From Chlorobiota bacterium (GTDB lineage Bacteria; Bacteroidota; Bacteroidia; Bacteroidales; F082), in assembly GCA_030618545.1 (NCBI GenBank), contig JAUXDH010000009.1, forward strand, positions 1-33,786: a stretch of DNA of 33,786 nt, read 5' to 3'. The notes under the pieces were generated by a model. It saw only the letters and a program-made list of their open reading frames with translations, did not search any database and had not been told where the DNA came from. Position 1 is the stretch's first letter, and each line of letters starts with the position of its first letter. A program made the position numbers and the translations under genes. Shown piece after piece: positions 777 to 12,966 of the stretch.

Positions 777-1244
777 TTATATGAACTCAATGTTTTGTTT
801 GCCTATAGTTTTCTCACAGTACTTGCAAAACAGCTTCATATTGCCTTTGTGGTCCTGTTTGACCTGGAATGATGTTGGTACATTTTGGTTATTGGTTACA
901 CATTTGGGATTAATGCACTTCACGATCTTATTCACTATTTCTGGCAGTTGTACCTTTTCTTTCCTGGATACTTCGTAATCCTTGATCTCAATCAATGTTG
1001 CGTTAGGGGCTACAAGGGATACTTTGTTGATTTCATCATCTTTAAAATATTTACCACTGATCTTGATGATGCCCTTCTTACCCAGTTTCTTGCTATCCAG
1101 ATTGGTTCCTAAATATACCTGGTTACTGGTTTCATCAAGACTTAAAATTCCAAAAACCTGGTACACTACGTCTGATGGAATATGATCGATTACCGTTCCA
1201 TTACGGATGGCTGATACTTTGAGTTCGGTACGTTTATTTTTCAT
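777..1244 (-). CDS. pyrI: Aspartate carbamoyltransferase regulatory subunit
   Basis: 155 aa; Cys4 zinc motif C-INPKC...FCKYC near the C-terminus; directly downstream of pyrB. Confidence 0.95.
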   Translation of the reverse strand: MKNKRTELKVSAIRNGTVIDHIPSDVVYQVFGILSLDETSNQVYLGTNLDSKKLGKKGIIKISGKYFKDDEINKVSLVAPNATLIEIKDYEVSRKEKVQLPEIVNKIVKCINPKCVTNNQNVPTSFQVKQDHKGNMKLFCKYCEKTIGKQNIEFI

Positions 1245-1291: not shown

Positions 1292-2209
1292 TCACTTCAA
1301 TCCCAATATCGCCGCGATCAGCGCCTGTCTTACAAAAACTCCATTTCGTGCCTGCTGGAAATAGTAAGCTTTGGGATTGTCATCTACATCTTCGGTAATT
1401 TCATTTACGCGTGGTAAAGGATGCAACACTTTCAGGTTATCCTTGGTATTTTCCAGCATTGAGTTTTCCAGAATATACGCGTTTTTTACTTTTTCGTATT
1501 CCAGCGGATCAGGAAATCTTTCACCCTGAATACGCGTCATATAAAGGATATCAGCAATTGGCATTACCTCCATAAAATCGTTGTATTGATAATATTCAAG
1601 GTTCGCATTTTTAACCCATGTCTTAACTGAGCTGGGCATTTTTAATGAGTCGGGTGACACAAAGTGGAAGGTAGCTCCAAACAAACTCAATGCCTGTACC
1701 AGTGAGTGAACGGTTCTTCCATATTTCAGGTCACCAACCATGGCTATGTGAATATTGTCCAGGCTGCCCTGGGTTTTGCGGATGGAATACAGGTCGAGCA
1801 AACATTGGGTTGGATGCTGGTTAGCTCCGTCTCCGGCATTAAGGATAGGAACGGGGGATACTTCGCTGGCATACCGGGCGCTTCCATCCAAAGGATTTCT
1901 CATCACGATCAGGTCGGAATAGTTACTAACTGTGAGTATGGTGTCTTTTAATGATTCTCCTTTGGTTACACTGGATACATCAGGGCTGGCAAAACCGATA
2001 ATGCTTCCGCCGAGGTACTGGACCGCACTCTCAAAACTAAGTCGTGTACGTGTTGACGGCTCAAAAAACAGGGAGCCAATTACATGACCGTTCAATATGT
2101 TTTGCCTCTGGTTTACTTCAAATTCTTCGGCAATGTCTAGTATCCTTAATATTTCCTCTTTATTGTAATCCGTTATGGAAACAAGGCTTCTGCCTTTCAG
2201 GTTAATCAT
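1292..2209 (-). CDS. pyrB: Aspartate carbamoyltransferase catalytic subunit
   Basis: 305 aa with FFEPSTRTRLSFE, HPTQCLLDLYSI and HPLPRVNEI motifs. Confidence 0.97.
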   Translation of the reverse strand: MINLKGRSLVSITDYNKEEILRILDIAEEFEVNQRQNILNGHVIGSLFFEPSTRTRLSFESAVQYLGGSIIGFASPDVSSVTKGESLKDTILTVSNYSDLIVMRNPLDGSARYASEVSPVPILNAGDGANQHPTQCLLDLYSIRKTQGSLDNIHIAMVGDLKYGRTVHSLVQALSLFGATFHFVSPDSLKMPSSVKTWVKNANLEYYQYNDFMEVMPIADILYMTRIQGERFPDPLEYEKVKNAYILENSMLENTKDNLKVLHPLPRVNEITEDVDDNPKAYYFQQARNGVFVRQALIAAILGLK

Positions 2210-2330
2210 GGGCTGTATGTTTTATGTTGCACAAAAAAAGACGGCTAACCCGTCTTAAATATTTATCCGGCATCGTAGAGATGCTTGCTTGTTCTTTCGA
2301 AGATTGGCTGAAAAGAGAACGATGTTTCAT
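2202..2330 (-). other. Candidate leader ORF (42 codons) reading through the terminator and overlapping the pyrB start
   Basis: ATG at 2330, frame MKHRSLFSQSSKEQASISTMPDKYLRRVSRLFLCNIKHTAHD*, TAA at 2202-2204, 8 nt past the A of pyrB ATG (2207-2209). Below the ORF-track size cutoff. Confidence 0.4.
2233..2256 (-). terminator. Intrinsic terminator / candidate attenuator in the pyrB leader
   Basis: Minus strand AAGACGG-GTTAG-CCGTCTT followed by a T tract; ends 23 nt before pyrB ATG. Confidence 0.75.
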
Positions 2331-2339
2331 TTCAGAAGA

Positions 2340-2347
2340 CAAAGATA
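2340..2347 (-). promoter_or_regulatory. Candidate Bacteroidota -7 box TATCTTTG upstream of the pyrB leader
   Basis: Matches TAnnTTTG; no clear -33 TTTG seen. Confidence 0.4.
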
Positions 2348-3220: not shown

Positions 3221-6200
3221 TTAATATTCAGCCCAGCTTTTTATCGAGAGATCTTCTATTTTGATGCGGGTAAAAGCGTAGATAAATGCACTCGCCAGCC
3301 TGGCATTTGTAATCAAGGGTACATTGAAGTCCACTGCTGCCCGCCTGACAGTGTAGTCGTTATCCAGTTCAGCTTTTGTATTGTCTTTAGGTATGTTGAT
3401 GACGAGGTCAATCTTTTTCTCTTTGATAAAAGAATAGGTATTGGGTTCTTTCATCTCATCAGGCCAGTAAAGCAATTTGGACTTGATACCATTGTTGGCA
3501 AGAAAATGCCGGGTGCCTTTTGTTGCATAAATCTGGTATCCGTTATCAACCAGCATCTGAGCGCTGTTTAATAATTCCGCTTTTGACCTTGCCGGTCCCG
3601 ATGAAATCAGGATGTTCTTGTCCGGAATTCTGTATCCAACAGAAAGCATTGACTTTAATATTGCCTCGTAATAATCATCCCCAAGACATCCCACTTCACC
3701 GGTTGATGCCATGTCAACACCCAGAACGGGGTCAGCTTTGCTCAAACGGGAAAAGGAGAACTGTGGGGCTTTTACTCCGATGTAATCGATATCAAATAAA
3801 GATTTGTTCGGCTTTTCCACCTTTTCACCAAGCATGATCCGGGTGGCATAATCAATGAAGTTTGTCTTCAGTACTTTTGAAACAAAAGGCAGACTCCTGG
3901 AAGCGCGGAGGTTGCACTCAATTACTTTGATATCATTATCCCGGGCAAGGAACTGGATATTAAAAGGGCCACTTATACGTAGTTCTTTGGCTATCCTGCG
4001 ACTGATCTTTTTAATTCTACGAATGGTTTCAACATATACTTTTTGGGGTGGAAACATGATTGTCGCGTCACCTGAATGAACACCTGCAAATTCAATGTGT
4101 TCGGAAATGGCATAAACAATAATTTCACCATCATCGGCTACCGCATCCATTTCTATTTCCTTGGCATCTATCAGGAAGCGAGAAACGACAACAGGGTATT
4201 GCTTGGACACCTGCGTTGCCAGAGTAAGGAAATGCTCCAGTTCATCCTTGTTGGAAACAATGTTCATTGCTGCTCCTGAAAGCACATAAGAAGGCCTGAC
4301 AAGCACCGGAAATCCTACCTTCTCAGTAAATTCGAAAATGTCGGAGGTGGAAGAAAGTTCTTTCCACTCAGGCTGATCCACGCCTATCCTGTCGAGCATT
4401 TCAGAGAATTTATGCCTGTTTTCAGCCTGATCAATAAACCGGGGTGGTGTACCCAGAATGGGTACTTCCCTGCGGTGCAATCGCATAGCCAGGTTATTCG
4501 GTATCTGGCCTCCGGTGGAAACTATTACACCAAAGGGCTGTTCCAGTTCTGCAATGTCGAGCGTACGTTCAAAACTAAGTTCGTCGAAGTACAGTCTGTC
4601 GCAAATGTCATAATCAGTGCTTACAGTTTCAGGATTGTAATTGATCATTACCGACCTGTAACCCGCCTTGTTAACTGTTTGCAGAGCATTTACGGCAGAC
4701 CAGTCAAACTCCACACTGCTACCGATTCGATAAGCCCCGGAGCCAAGAACAATAACCGATTTGCCATCTTTCTCAAAAACAATATCATGTTCGCTGCCGT
4801 GGTATGTCAAATAAAGGTAATTTGTGGAAGCCGGATGTTCCGCCGCAAGCGTATCGATCTGTTTTACCCAGGGAATAATACCTTTTGACTTTCGGTGGTT
4901 TCTCACGTCAGTGATCTCCTTATCGGTGGTTCCGACGGCCTTTTCTTTATAAATCAGCCGGGCGATCTGGAAATCTGAAAAGCCCAGTTTTTTTGCTGCC
5001 AGAAGCACCTGGTCAGGCAACTCTTTAAGTTCATTAAATGATTGCAGAACTTTTACATGCTCATTGATGTTTTTCAACTTTTCAAGGAACCATCGGTCAA
5101 TCTTCGTTTTTTCAAAAATGGATTCCACATCCCAGCCCTGATTGAATGCCTGTTCGATGGCGAAGATCCGCATGTCAGTAGGATTGGATAATTCTGTTTC
5201 AATATCCTCAAAAGCAAGATCCCTGTTGCCTACAAATCCATGCACTCCCAGGCCGGTCATGCGAAGGCCTTTTTGAATTGCTTCTTCAAAGTTTCTGCCA
5301 ATGGCCATTACTTCACCAACACTTTTCATAGAGGAGCCAATTTCTTTTGATACGCCCAGAAACTTATTCAGATCCCATCGCGGGATTTTGCAGACCATAT
5401 AATCGAGGGCCGGTTCAAAAAATGCTGTTGTGGTACGCGTGACACTATTTTTTAACTCATGAAGCCCATATCCCAATCCCAATTTGGCAGCGACAAAGGC
5501 AAGAGGGTATCCTGTAGCTTTTGAGGCGAGAGCGGAAGATCGCGATAGCCTGGCATTAACCTCTATCACACGATAATCTTCGGACTTCGGATCAAGAGCA
5601 TACTGCACATTGCACTCACCAACGATGCCAACCGATTTGATGATCTGAATGGAGAGTTTCCTGAGGTTATGGTATTCTGAGTTGGTCAGTGTTTGAGATG
5701 GGGCAACCACTATGCTTTCGCCGGTATGGATACCAAGCGGATCAAAATTCTCCATATTGCATACCGTGATGCAATTGTCGTATTGGTCGCGAACAACCTC
5801 ATACTCTACCTCTTTCCAGCCTTTTAAGGATTCTTCAACCAATATCTGGGAAGAATACGAAAAAGCCTTGTCAGTAAGTTTTCTAAGTTCTTTTTCGTTG
5901 GAGCAGAATCCGCTTCCCTGACCGCCAAGGGTGAAAGCCGCTCGAATGATAACAGGAAAGCCTATTTCCTGAGCAGCCGACAAAGCTGCAGGAACAGACT
6001 CACAGGCAATCGACCTTGGTGTGTCAATGTTGATCGAATGAAGCTTTTTGGAAAATAATTCCCGGTCTTCTGTTTCGATGATCGCCTCAACCGGTGTGCC
6101 CATGACTTTTACATCATATTTCTTAAGCACTCCGGATTCATGAAGTTTTATACCGCAATTGAGCGCTGTTTGCCCTCCAAAAGCCAGCAGTATGCCCTCG

Positions 6201-6439
6201 GGTTTTTCCTTTTCAATGATCCTTTCAACAAAGTAGGGGGTGACAGGCAAAAAGTAAATCTGGTCAGCAATGCCTTCGGAAGTCTGGACAGTGGCGATGT
6301 TTGGGTTGATCAACACTGTTTTGATGCCTTCTTCTTTAAGCGCCTTCAAGGCTTGTGAGCCACTGTAATCGAATTCGCCGGCTTCGCCTATTTTAAGGGC
6401 GCCGGAGCCGAGGAGGAGGACTTTGTTGATGTTGGTCAT
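3221..6439 (-). CDS. carB: Carbamoyl-phosphate synthase large subunit
   Basis: 1072 aa with duplicated ATP-grasp halves (KVLLLGSGALKIGEAGEFDYSGSQA / KSVIVLGSGAYRIGSSVEFDW) and a C-terminal MGS-like domain. Confidence 0.97.
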   Translation of the reverse strand: MTNINKVLLLGSGALKIGEAGEFDYSGSQALKALKEEGIKTVLINPNIATVQTSEGIADQIYFLPVTPYFVERIIEKEKPEGILLAFGGQTALNCGIKLHESGVLKKYDVKVMGTPVEAIIETEDRELFSKKLHSINIDTPRSIACESVPAALSAAQEIGFPVIIRAAFTLGGQGSGFCSNEKELRKLTDKAFSYSSQILVEESLKGWKEVEYEVVRDQYDNCITVCNMENFDPLGIHTGESIVVAPSQTLTNSEYHNLRKLSIQIIKSVGIVGECNVQYALDPKSEDYRVIEVNARLSRSSALASKATGYPLAFVAAKLGLGYGLHELKNSVTRTTTAFFEPALDYMVCKIPRWDLNKFLGVSKEIGSSMKSVGEVMAIGRNFEEAIQKGLRMTGLGVHGFVGNRDLAFEDIETELSNPTDMRIFAIEQAFNQGWDVESIFEKTKIDRWFLEKLKNINEHVKVLQSFNELKELPDQVLLAAKKLGFSDFQIARLIYKEKAVGTTDKEITDVRNHRKSKGIIPWVKQIDTLAAEHPASTNYLYLTYHGSEHDIVFEKDGKSVIVLGSGAYRIGSSVEFDWSAVNALQTVNKAGYRSVMINYNPETVSTDYDICDRLYFDELSFERTLDIAELEQPFGVIVSTGGQIPNNLAMRLHRREVPILGTPPRFIDQAENRHKFSEMLDRIGVDQPEWKELSSTSDIFEFTEKVGFPVLVRPSYVLSGAAMNIVSNKDELEHFLTLATQVSKQYPVVVSRFLIDAKEIEMDAVADDGEIIVYAISEHIEFAGVHSGDATIMFPPQKVYVETIRRIKKISRRIAKELRISGPFNIQFLARDNDIKVIECNLRASRSLPFVSKVLKTNFIDYATRIMLGEKVEKPNKSLFDIDYIGVKAPQFSFSRLSKADPVLGVDMASTGEVGCLGDDYYEAILKSMLSVGYRIPDKNILISSGPARSKAELLNSAQMLVDNGYQIYATKGTRHFLANNGIKSKLLYWPDEMKEPNTYSFIKEKKIDLVINIPKDNTKAELDNDYTVRRAAVDFNVPLITNARLASAFIYAFTRIKIEDLSIKSWAEY

Positions 6440-6696: not shown

Positions 6697-7128
6697 CTAT
6701 CTTAAACCGTTTTTATCATCCTTTCTTTTTTTTACATAGTTAATAAAACCGTTCAAACTGATCTTCGCAGTTTCTATTAGCTGTATTCCTTCATCAAATA
6801 AGGATTTGTCAATATATTCAATGTCTATGCAACTAATCAGATGATCTTTCAACTCATAGATAGAGCCCCTGGATATTCTGTAAAACTGAATTCCTTCCTG
6901 GTAATGATACCTTCCATAACCTTCAGCGATGTTCGCCGTTGAACTCACAGCTGCCTTTCTGATCTGAATGTTCAAATTGTACTTCTCTGTTTCAGGTAAT
7001 ACCGGGATAATCTTTTTATAAAAATATAATTTCATTTTTCTGGCGTCCTTCCAACACACCAAACTCGTAAAATCTTTTTGTTGGTTGTATTCACCTTTCC
7101 CTTCTTCAAAAATATTGTCCTTGTCCAT
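6697..7128 (-). CDS. Four-helix-bundle protein (S23 / 23S rRNA intervening-sequence protein family)
   Basis: 143 aa: FTSLVCWKDARKMKLYFYKKI...QIRKAAVSSTANIAEGYGRYHYQEGIQFYRISRGSIYELKDHL, the typical IVP-family signature. Confidence 0.88.
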   Translation of the reverse strand: MDKDNIFEEGKGEYNQQKDFTSLVCWKDARKMKLYFYKKIIPVLPETEKYNLNIQIRKAAVSSTANIAEGYGRYHYQEGIQFYRISRGSIYELKDHLISCIDIEYIDKSLFDEGIQLIETAKISLNGFINYVKKRKDDKNGLR

Positions 7129-7145: not shown

Positions 7146-7222
7146 TTAATGATTTCTTTCATCTTAATTCATTCTCATTTTGACTTATACCTTATATCCT
7201 TTATACCCTTATACACCCATTA
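7146..7222. repeat. Flanking direct repeat B of the four-helix-bundle gene
   Basis: attaatgatttctttcatcttaattcattctcatttt...tacccttatacaccc, similar to 6605-6680. Confidence 0.55.
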
Positions 7223-8314
7223 CCTCATCCCCATCTTCCACTTTTCAATCGCTTTGATAAAATCCCCGAAAAGGAAGGCCGTATCTGTTGGTCCGCTTGA
7301 AGCTTCAGGATGAAACTGGGTAGTGAAAATGGGTCGTGATTCATGTTTTAAACCTTCGTTGCTCTGGTCGTTGAGGTTAGTGAAGTAGGGAAGCCATCCC
7401 TGCGGAATGCTGTCGGAACCCACCGCGTAACCATGGTTTTGAGAACTCAGGTAAGCCCTGTTTGTGCCAACTTCCAGAACCGGCTGGTTGTGACTTCTGT
7501 GTCCGAATTTTAGCTTATAAGTTTTTGCACCTGCTGCCAGGGCAGTCAGTTGATGTCCCAGGCAAATGCCGAAGATGGGGCGTTCTTCCCCAATGGATTT
7601 TTTGAGGTTGACAATTGTATCCTTGCACATTGTTGGATCTCCCGGACCATTTGATATAAACAACCCATCATATTCTTCCTGGCTGTAATCGTAGTTCCAT
7701 GGCACCCTTATTACGGTAGTGTCATATCTTAACAGGAACCTGATGATGTTGCTCTTCACACCGCAGTCAATAAGCAATATCCTGTATTTTCCATTTCCAT
7801 AAACTATCCTTTCTTTGATGCTGACCTGGTCAACAAGGTTGTCTTTATTGGGGTCATAAAAAGGGATATCTTCATCGATAATGATCCTGGCAAGCATAGA
7901 TCCTTTTTCCCTGATGATTTTGGTTAGCATACGTGTGTCGATACCAAATAATCCGGGTATTTTTTCTTCTTTCAGCCAATCCCCCAGACTCATAGCTGCA
8001 TTCCAGTGGTTAAATTTAGAGGAGTAATCTGAGATGATAAGTCCACTGATGTGGATGTGTTCCGATTCAAAAAACTCGAGCATGCCATCCTGGATCGTTT
8101 TTCCGGGGACACCATAATTACCAATTGAAGGGTAGGTGAGAACAAGGATCTGACCCCGGTAGGAAGGATCTGTCAGGCTTTCCGGATAGCCGGTCATAGC
8201 TGTGTTGAATACGATCTCTCCGGCTGCCGATCCCTCATACCCGAAGGAATGCCCGGTAAACTCAGAGCCATCTTCAAGGATGAGTGATGCTGCTCGATAA
8301 TTGATTTGTGTCAT
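7220..8314 (-). CDS. carA: Carbamoyl-phosphate synthase small (glutaminase) subunit
   Basis: 364 aa; GLFISNGPGDPT, PIFGICLGHQL, TQFHPEASSGP class I amidotransferase motifs. Confidence 0.97.
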   Translation of the reverse strand: MTQINYRAASLILEDGSEFTGHSFGYEGSAAGEIVFNTAMTGYPESLTDPSYRGQILVLTYPSIGNYGVPGKTIQDGMLEFFESEHIHISGLIISDYSSKFNHWNAAMSLGDWLKEEKIPGLFGIDTRMLTKIIREKGSMLARIIIDEDIPFYDPNKDNLVDQVSIKERIVYGNGKYRILLIDCGVKSNIIRFLLRYDTTVIRVPWNYDYSQEEYDGLFISNGPGDPTMCKDTIVNLKKSIGEERPIFGICLGHQLTALAAGAKTYKLKFGHRSHNQPVLEVGTNRAYLSSQNHGYAVGSDSIPQGWLPYFTNLNDQSNEGLKHESRPIFTTQFHPEASSGPTDTAFLFGDFIKAIEKWKMGMR

Positions 8315-8330
8315 GTATAAATTGGTGCAT

Positions 8331-8355
8331 AAAAAAAGACGGCATCGGCCGTCTT
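8331..8355 (-). terminator. Intrinsic terminator / candidate attenuator in the carA leader
   Basis: Minus strand AAGACGGC-CGAT-GCCGTCTT followed by T7; ends 16 nt before carA ATG. Confidence 0.8.
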
Positions 8356-8356
8356 A

Positions 8357-8395
8357 CTAATATAATTGTTGGTTTTTGTTCCGAACTTTAATCAT
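8357..8395 (-). other. Candidate 12-codon carA leader ORF ending at the foot of the terminator stem
   Basis: ATG ATT AAA GTT CGG AAC AAA AAC CAA CAA TTA TAT TAG; the stop is 1 nt before the stem. Confidence 0.35.
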
Positions 8396-8415
8396 AGAAT
8401 CAATTGTTCGGAGTG

Positions 8416-8423
8416 CAAATATA
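8416..8423 (-). promoter_or_regulatory. Candidate -7 box TATATTTG upstream of the carA leader
   Basis: Matches TAnnTTTG; a TTTT tract lies about 19 nt upstream. Confidence 0.5.
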
Positions 8424-8605: not shown

Positions 8606-8626
8606 CCTCCCCTTTTGAAGGGGAGG
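8606..8626. repeat. Palindromic intergenic hairpin CCTCCCCTT-TTG-AAGGGGAGG
   Basis: Perfect 9-bp inverted repeat; similar purine/pyrimidine palindromes near 8730 and at 24255-24275. Confidence 0.7.
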
Positions 8627-8758
8627 TTGCCGAAGGCCGGAGGGGTTACAATTAATATTATCAATTCCAACCACCCCTGATCTTTGCTCAGCTAACAAGT
8701 TAGCTTCGCTTCGATCTTCCCATCCTTTGAAAGGAGGGGAGTTGGTAGCAACTATTAC

Positions 8759-12519: not shown

Positions 12520-12966
12520 ATGAGTACATACACACAGATTCTTTATCAGCTTGTTTTCGGCACAAAAAACCATGAAATGACTATGATTGAATCAGGTCAG
12601 GAACGACTTTACAGGTTTATCTGGGGGATCTTAAGAAATAAAAATTGCCATTTGTACAGAATTGGGGGAGTAGAAGACCATATACATATCATCACACATA
12701 TACATCCAACTACGGCTGTTGCATATTTAGTAAAAGACATAAAACTCGCTTCATCCGGTTTTATAAAAACTGAAAACATTTTCCCTGATTTTAATGGCTG
12801 GCAGGATGGATACGGAGCATTTACTTACTCTATTTCAGCAAAAGATAATTTAATCGAGTATGTAAAAAATCAGAAAGAGCACCATAAAAAAATAAGTTTC
12901 AGAGACGAATACATCAGTTTGCTAAAAGAACATGGGATGGGATTTGATGAGAATTACTTGTTCTGA
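12520..12966 (+). CDS. IS200/IS605-family (REP-associated type) Y1 transposase
   Basis: 148 aa: MSTYTQILYQLVFGTKNHE..., HUH motif VEDHIHIITH, putative catalytic Tyr in NLIEYVKNQKEHHKKISF. Confidence 0.93.
   Translation: MSTYTQILYQLVFGTKNHEMTMIESGQERLYRFIWGILRNKNCHLYRIGGVEDHIHIITHIHPTTAVAYLVKDIKLASSGFIKTENIFPDFNGWQDGYGAFTYSISAKDNLIEYVKNQKEHHKKISFRDEYISLLKEHGMGFDENYLF

Follow-up and report, generated by a model that had tools for sequence, protein, structure and literature searches.

Gene organization of the carA-pyrI region

We found that the window, i.e., the whole stretch of 33,786 nt analysed here, from an uncultured Bacteroidales bacterium, carries on its minus strand a cluster organized as carA-four-helix-bundle protein-carB-DUF4136 protein-pyrB-pyrI. 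The enzyme subunits encoded are as follows:

7220..8314, minus strand: carA, carbamoyl-phosphate synthase small subunit (TIGR01368, E 1.2e-133)
3221..6439, minus strand: carB, carbamoyl-phosphate synthase large subunit (TIGR01369, E 0)
1292..2209, minus strand: pyrB, aspartate carbamoyltransferase catalytic subunit (TIGR00670, E 1.2e-110)
777..1244, minus strand: pyrI, aspartate carbamoyltransferase regulatory subunit (TIGR00240, E 5.1e-47)

The four-helix-bundle protein encoded between carA and carB (6697-7128) belongs to the 23S rRNA-intervening-sequence family. A repeat-like CCTCCCCTTCAAAAGGGGAGG stretch (8606-8730) lies upstream of the carA promoter, and a similar one occupies the same place in a relative (L022). 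An IS200/IS605-type transposase is encoded at 12520-12966, with a score just under the curated cut-off of its family.

The carA leader

The region upstream of carA is composed of the following elements:

8416..8423, minus strand: sigma-A -7 box of the carA promoter, Bacteroidota type, TATATTTG (identified in the sequence)
8411, minus strand: predicted +1 of the carA transcript, a C, with C C G at +1 to +3 (placed at box+5, not mapped experimentally)
8380..8412, minus strand: hairpin P1, outer arms TCCGAAC ... GTTCGGA and, further in, a UUGAUU/GAUUAA helix; the leader ORF begins within the hairpin
8357..8395, minus strand: carA leader ORF, MIKVRNKNQQLY-TAG, with its stop 1 nt 5' of the terminator stem
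8331..8355, minus strand: carA intrinsic terminator (attenuator), AAGACGGC-CGAT-GCCGTCTT plus T run (supported by sequence, folding and family conservation)

The core arms of P1, CCGAAC (8411-8406) and GTTCGG (8386-8381), can be extended to TCCGAAC/GTTCGGA, and the ATG of the leader ORF (8395-8393) sits between them. A single T separates the stop of this ORF from the terminator, in which the stem arms AAGACGGC (8355-8348) and GCCGTCTT (8343-8336) flank the loop CGAT and are followed by the T run down to 8331, with 16 nt left between the T run and the carA ATG at 8314. The leader as a whole folds with z = -3.5 (0/200 shuffles as good), P1 alone with z = -3.3 and -9.3 kcal/mol from the predicted first base, and the terminator alone with -11.9 kcal/mol and z = -4.2. 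The upstream gene possesses a terminator of its own (stem 8786-8765).

An earlier sequence-only reading had named the box, the inverted repeat, the ATG in its loop, the micro-ORF and the terminator, and all of them held at every coordinate. Its assignment of a T7 tail held only in part, as two of these T also belong to the stem and five follow the paired stem, while its argument that the carA terminator is unlikely to be a leftover, given the separate terminator of the upstream gene, was upheld. The reading had noticed the inverted repeat and missed that its 5' arm begins at the predicted transcription start and that it encloses the ORF start.

The comparison of carA 5' regions which the same reading had proposed as a check was run on the family of the window, from which carA upstream regions were gathered and counted as distinct leaders. 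The layout box-P1-short ORF-terminator-carA is kept in 44 distinct leaders from 12 genera. All 44 have a TAnnTTTG-like box followed, close to carA on its 5' side, by an intrinsic terminator, which in nearly all reads (A)GACGG..CCGTC(T)T7; the family carA leaders without this layout come mainly from genus g2, with a few others. Among 299 control genes (400 kb, two relatives), none showed a promoter box together with an intrinsic terminator ≤65 nt from the start codon, and the layout is therefore not a general feature of these genomes. The controls were drawn from two genomes and the window only, and species within a genus are not independent. The parts of the leader and their conservation are established by sequence comparison, and the carA leader stands far beyond chance.

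In genus g2, the carA leaders (L055, L077, L079, L081) retain a 5' CCCCGG hairpin without a proper terminator or ORF. The 3' arm of P1 overlaps a second hairpin in these leaders, which, if it terminates, would imply the opposite sign of control; this is unexplained. In turn, nearly complete genomes of genus g14 (G018, G047, G059 and others) carry pyrB with its attenuator (L361, L362, L365), and no carA was detected in them.

The leader ORF

As the start of the leader ORF we accepted an ATG anywhere up to about 30 nt from the box, a definition which somewhat favours reaching the terminator, and a frame was scored as reaching it when open to at least 14 nt before the stem. By this measure, in 44/44 carA leaders the ORF reaches or crosses the terminator, against 19.1 expected from dinucleotide shuffles; the genus-level product for ORF reach, at its most lenient, is 10^-3.6. 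Between the ATG and the stem, stops account for 1/803 codons in frame versus 41/785 and 37/771 in the other frames, and past the stem for 7/443 versus 23/449 and 19/446. The pN/pS of the leader peptide is 0.59 in frame, compared with 0.92 and 1.09 off frame. The open leader frame is established by this comparison, and although no translation data are at hand, the case for a real ORF under translated-frame constraint is well supported.

The majority of carA leader ORFs run through the stem, and 15 of them end in an ATGA overlap with carA. The ORF of the window, which ends 1 nt before the stem, and those of L080 and L035 stop short and depend on the ribosome footprint instead of read-through. 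Work in E. coli showed that a terminator loses most of its efficiency, falling from about 90% to <10%, when a stop codon is placed 5 bp upstream of it (PMC4824070), and that the pyrL terminator is suppressed by translation across pyrL (PMC5021804); because of these results, both end positions, just before and through the stem, should silence the terminator. ORF-coupled attenuation is very likely on the grounds of sequence comparison, in the absence of readthrough data.

The leader peptide shows no run of regulatory codons of the kind expected of amino-acid attenuators, and it is conserved within genera, not between them. Neither Arg nor Gln is enriched in the carA leader ORFs (R 0.054 vs. 0.059 and Q 0.061 vs. 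0.054 off frame); the peptide of the window contains QQ and one R. The stretch before the carA stem is U-rich, with a T fraction of 0.48 compared to 0.25 at 18 ordinary 3' terminators, and pausing there was not measured.

A second copy of the leader at pyrB

A terminator scan of the operon region found AAGACGG-GTTAG-CCGTCTT-T7 directly before pyrB, where the window carries a second copy of the leader (2202-2347):

2340..2347, minus strand: pyrB promoter -7 box, TATCTTTG
2308..2335, minus strand: hairpin P1 of the pyrB leader, CTGAAA ... TTTCAG, its first base being the predicted +1 (C at 2335)
2202..2330, minus strand: pyrB leader ORF, MKHRSLFSQSSKEQASISTMPDKYLRRVSRLFLCNIKHTAHD-stop, 42 codons, running through the terminator and ending 8 nt inside pyrB
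2232..2256, minus strand: pyrB attenuator, AAGACGG-GTTAG-CCGTCTT plus T run

Box and terminator are present in 48/50 pyrB leaders of the family, representing all 16 genera sampled, and stops before the stem number 2/934 in frame versus 64/915 and 52/908 in the other frames. The sequence-only reading had suggested that the place of the ribosome on the micro-ORF could govern terminator folding, and this coupling is strongly supported by the comparative evidence, the ORF reaching the terminator in 47/48 pyrB leaders as it does in 44/44 at carA. It had left undecided whether carA is thereby tied to translation or to nucleotide supply; the same device at pyrB favours pyrimidine supply over arginine or general translation. 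Given that the only pathway served by pyrB is that of the pyrimidines, arginine is much less likely as the signal than pyrimidines, which we consider likely by inference. Overall, the earlier interpretation is supported, as inferred from sequence comparison without measurement in cells.

Transcription start and hairpin P1

In Flavobacterium psychrophilum the sigma-A box spans -12 to -5 (PMC9723704), on which basis +1 was placed at box+5. In 10/13 family genomes (L275, L277, L278, L280-L286) a TAnnTTTG box precedes the pyrE ATG at a distance of exactly 4 nt, and in L274 of 5 nt; judging from these sequences, the pyrE mRNA is apparently leaderless and starts at its own A, in agreement with +1 at box+5. 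At pyrD and pyrG no leader of the carA type was found.

We determined that a pyrimidine-pyrimidine-purine sequence occupies the predicted +1 to +3 in 37/44 carA and 43/48 pyrB leaders, compared with 21/111 control promoters, and that +1 and +2 are both paired in 29/44 and 41/48, respectively, compared with 5/39 controls. The 5' arm of P1 usually begins at the predicted first transcribed base. Starting at +3 costs 2.3 (carA) and 2.8 (pyrB) kcal/mol as opposed to 0.4 in controls; for the carA P1 of the window, dG is -9.3 from +1 versus -4.6 from +3. In a swap test, the first seven bases of carA leaders found better pairing partners in the downstream sequence of the same leader than in leaders from other genera (permutation P 0.0002; Wilcoxon P 0.003 at the genus level), and for pyrB 0/5000 permutations were as good (P <0.0002). 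The P1 arms co-vary between genera while their sequence varies freely (CCGAAC, CTGAAA, CTAAT, TTAAT and others), and P1, where present, encloses or contains the start of the leader ORF. Anchoring of P1 at the start and covariation of its arms are thus established by sequence comparison.

There are exceptions: in most carA leaders of genera g3, g5, g11 and g15, P1 is not anchored at +1, and at carA of g15 and g3 the leaders' own arms have no pairing advantage over swapped ones. The modelled accessibility of the ORF start shows a small mean gain on a +3 start, from 0.54 to 0.59. The motif TANNTTTGNNNYCCGAA alone is not specific, as it also occurs in the same genome before genes which, from their translations, we take to be those of ribosomal proteins L33 and S15, an acyl-CoA ligase and a hypothetical protein. 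Since TANNTTTGNNNYCCGAA precedes other genes too, it is the pairing of P1, and not the CCGAA start, which distinguishes the carA leader. We lean, with no great margin, towards P1 and the start site acting together as a sensor; switching of the start site and the direction of the P1 effect are inferred.

Distribution outside the family

At carA, the same plan (5' hairpin, ORF, terminator) is found in isolated genomes from other families within the order (L207, L250, L230, L240, L252, L260) and likely, by eye, in L258. In turn, most other families lack the pyrB device, with 5/44 pyrB leaders outside the family passing the automatic test. The credible ones are L369, L370, L371 and L407, plus Butyricimonas by eye, and cultured bacteria with the pyrB device include Marinilabilia salmonicolor (L369), an Odoribacter (L370), a Sanguibacteroides and Butyricimonas synergistica DSM 23225 (L372). 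Two calls were set aside: at carA, L264 was unconvincing, and at pyrB, L388 was rejected, as it sits in the tail of the upstream gene.

Other arrangements were also observed, for which no statistical test was made. In L107, L110 and L262, CCCCGGATCAT at the start of the carA RNA is complementary to the carA start ATGACCGGG, and in L215 the first bases CCGG are complementary to ACCGG at the carA start; pairing of this kind in the four leaders could represent pyrC-like direct hiding of carA. In further Bacteroidales families carA leaders have GGTTTT(T) at the predicted transcription start (L239, L242, L244, L251, L273, with a variant in L272; also L203, L237, L253, L257, L271), and in the first five the carA start codon is covered by a ACGATAGA/TCTATCGT helix. 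The GGTTTT(T)-starting leaders are possibly a separate nucleotide-sensing type.

Proposed mechanism

The explanation which we find best, and prefer by a modest margin, is ribosome-coupled attenuation in which a 5'-terminal hairpin controls the start of the leader ORF. As part of it, carA(-carB) and pyrB(-pyrI) would form two transcription units, each with the same attenuator, a view for which the balance tips slightly in favour. With ample CTP and UTP, RNA polymerase would start at the pyrimidine at +1 and the 5' end would close P1; the closed hairpin would hide the start of the leader ORF, no ribosome would follow, and the terminator would halt the polymerase ahead of the gene. Under a shortage of pyrimidine triphosphates, the start would shift by two bases to the conserved purine, leaving P1 weakened or absent. 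A ribosome could then load on the leader ORF and reach or cover the 5' arm of the terminator, resulting in readthrough into the gene; in most species, leader translation would also continue to the gene's own start codon. The same shortage may also make the polymerase pause in the U-rich stretch that precedes the terminator, and at carA this stretch offers room for UTP-sensitive pausing as a second input. The leaders would thereby probably switch pyrimidine synthesis on only at pyrimidine nucleotide shortage. The signal, start-site switching, pausing and the sign of the P1 effect are inferences, made without transcript, start-site, readthrough or translation data. P1 was also considered as an antiterminator, and this was rejected, as the fold of the window leader contains no competing pairing.

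A bolder reading, which could as well prove wrong as right, sees one leader as a two-stage nucleotide sensor, widespread in Bacteroidales at carA and pyrB: the choice of the first base would decide whether P1 hides the leader ORF, and translation of the ORF whether the polymerase passes the terminator. The same joint claim holds that other families have diverged to direct hiding of the carA start codon or to leaders starting with GGUUUU.

Alternative explanations

Among the alternatives, pure pyrBI-type attenuation remains possible. UTP-sensitive pausing in the U-rich stretch would set the distance between ribosome and polymerase, and P1 would sense nothing, merely protecting the 5' end or delaying ribosome loading. 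The leader ORF passing through the terminator with a U-rich stretch ahead of it, as in pyrL, speaks for it, as does the fact that P1 is weak or absent in some genera. Yet, it leaves unexplained the pyrimidine-pyrimidine-purine start, the anchoring of P1 at +1 and its covariation at both operons.

Sensing of translation capacity or of an amino acid connected with carbamoyl phosphate (arginine or glutamine) in the style of classical leader peptides is unlikely. It could draw on the translated leader ORF before a terminator, on carA feeding arginine as well, and on the QQ and single R of the window peptide. Against it, the peptide lacks conservation across genera and has neither a single-codon run nor Arg/Gln enrichment, the same device stands at pyrB, which does not serve arginine, and the window fold contains no alternative antiterminator pairing.

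It is very unlikely that an unknown RNA-binding protein or metabolite recognizes P1 and thereby controls translation of the leader ORF. The structure is conserved and encloses the ORF start; however, its sequence varies freely, unlike a binding motif, it matches no Rfam family, and no PyrR above cut-off was found in 41 genomes. Terminators near start codons can be relics of the upstream gene, but a constitutive or leftover terminator, with ORF and hairpin present by chance, is all but excluded by 92 leaders conserved at two operons, the conservation of frame and the separate terminator of the upstream gene.

Implications and comparison with known systems

The whole case for ribosome-coupled attenuation under P1 control rests on comparative evidence, with no start site or transcript measured. 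In the open-access literature searched (subscription journals being mostly outside its scope), we found no description of pyrimidine attenuation, pyrBI, carAB or reiterative transcription in Bacteroidota, nor, in open-access full texts, any account of the control of pyrimidine synthesis in this phylum. The leaders offer a specific and testable answer at two operons, and cultured strains share the pyrB device. If the proposal is true, a distant phylum unites in one device two mechanisms that in enterobacteria are known separately.

The likeness to Bacillus PyrR attenuation is confined to a terminator in the leader of pyrimidine genes, while both the PyrR binding RNA and a PyrR protein above cut-off are missing. 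The PyrR binding RNA (Rfam RF00515) gave no match at gathering score in the window, nor at E≤10 around the leader, and the protein was above cut-off in 0/41 genomes, the genome of the window being 88% complete. The remark of the sequence-only reading that no Bacillus-type PyrR-binding sequence is present thus held, and absence of the PyrR system was confirmed. No known RNA family of Rfam matched in the window or in 12 relatives; in a relaxed-threshold Rfam search around the leader, S15-Flavobacteria scored 21 bits, far under its gathering score of 46.5. In E. coli, promoter P1 of carAB (not to be confused with our hairpin) and pyrBI sense nucleotides in their first transcribed bases by reiterative transcription; carAB slips on UUU and has no attenuator as far as the review says (PMC6245113). 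Here, in contrast, there is no UUU-type run at +1, except in leaders of genus g6.

Where no paper is cited, statements on pyrC and pyrBI regulation reflect general knowledge of the literature. Of the criteria of the E. coli pyrBI/pyrL type, the leaders fulfil two, a terminator between promoter and gene and a leader ORF open to or through it, while for a UTP-sensitive pause region there is only the T enrichment before the carA stem. As in pyrBI/pyrL, the ORF extends to or across an intrinsic terminator and stops close to the start codon of the gene (in the E. coli genome, the pyrL frame crosses its terminator and stops 3 nt short of pyrB), a U-rich stretch precedes the terminator, and the same enzyme (pyrBI) would be controlled. 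Unlike in pyrBI/pyrL, the ORF start lies inside a hairpin of the first transcribed bases, the device is also present at carA, the peptide has no evident similarity to that of pyrL, and both phylum and promoter type are different.

In turn, the likeness to E. coli/Salmonella pyrC and pyrD consists in a pyrimidine-pyrimidine-purine start and a 5'-terminal hairpin formed by the first pyrimidines, which is weaker two bases later. By the same computation, the 5' hairpin of E. coli pyrC has -9.1 kcal/mol from its TCCGG start region and -5.8 two bases later. Of the criteria of this type, the start region and the dependence of the hairpin on the first two bases are met (the latter not at carA in g3, g5, g11 and g15), while a hairpin over the structural gene's own ribosome site is not met in the window's family and was seen only in other families (L107, L110, L215, L262). 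The pyrC hairpin hides the ribosome site of the gene itself, whereas here a leader ORF would be hidden and the output would be transcription termination. By analogy, the carA and pyrB leaders would work like pyrC, without being filed as members of the pyrC/pyrD type, and the proposed device may be described as the sensor of pyrC driving the output of pyrBI.
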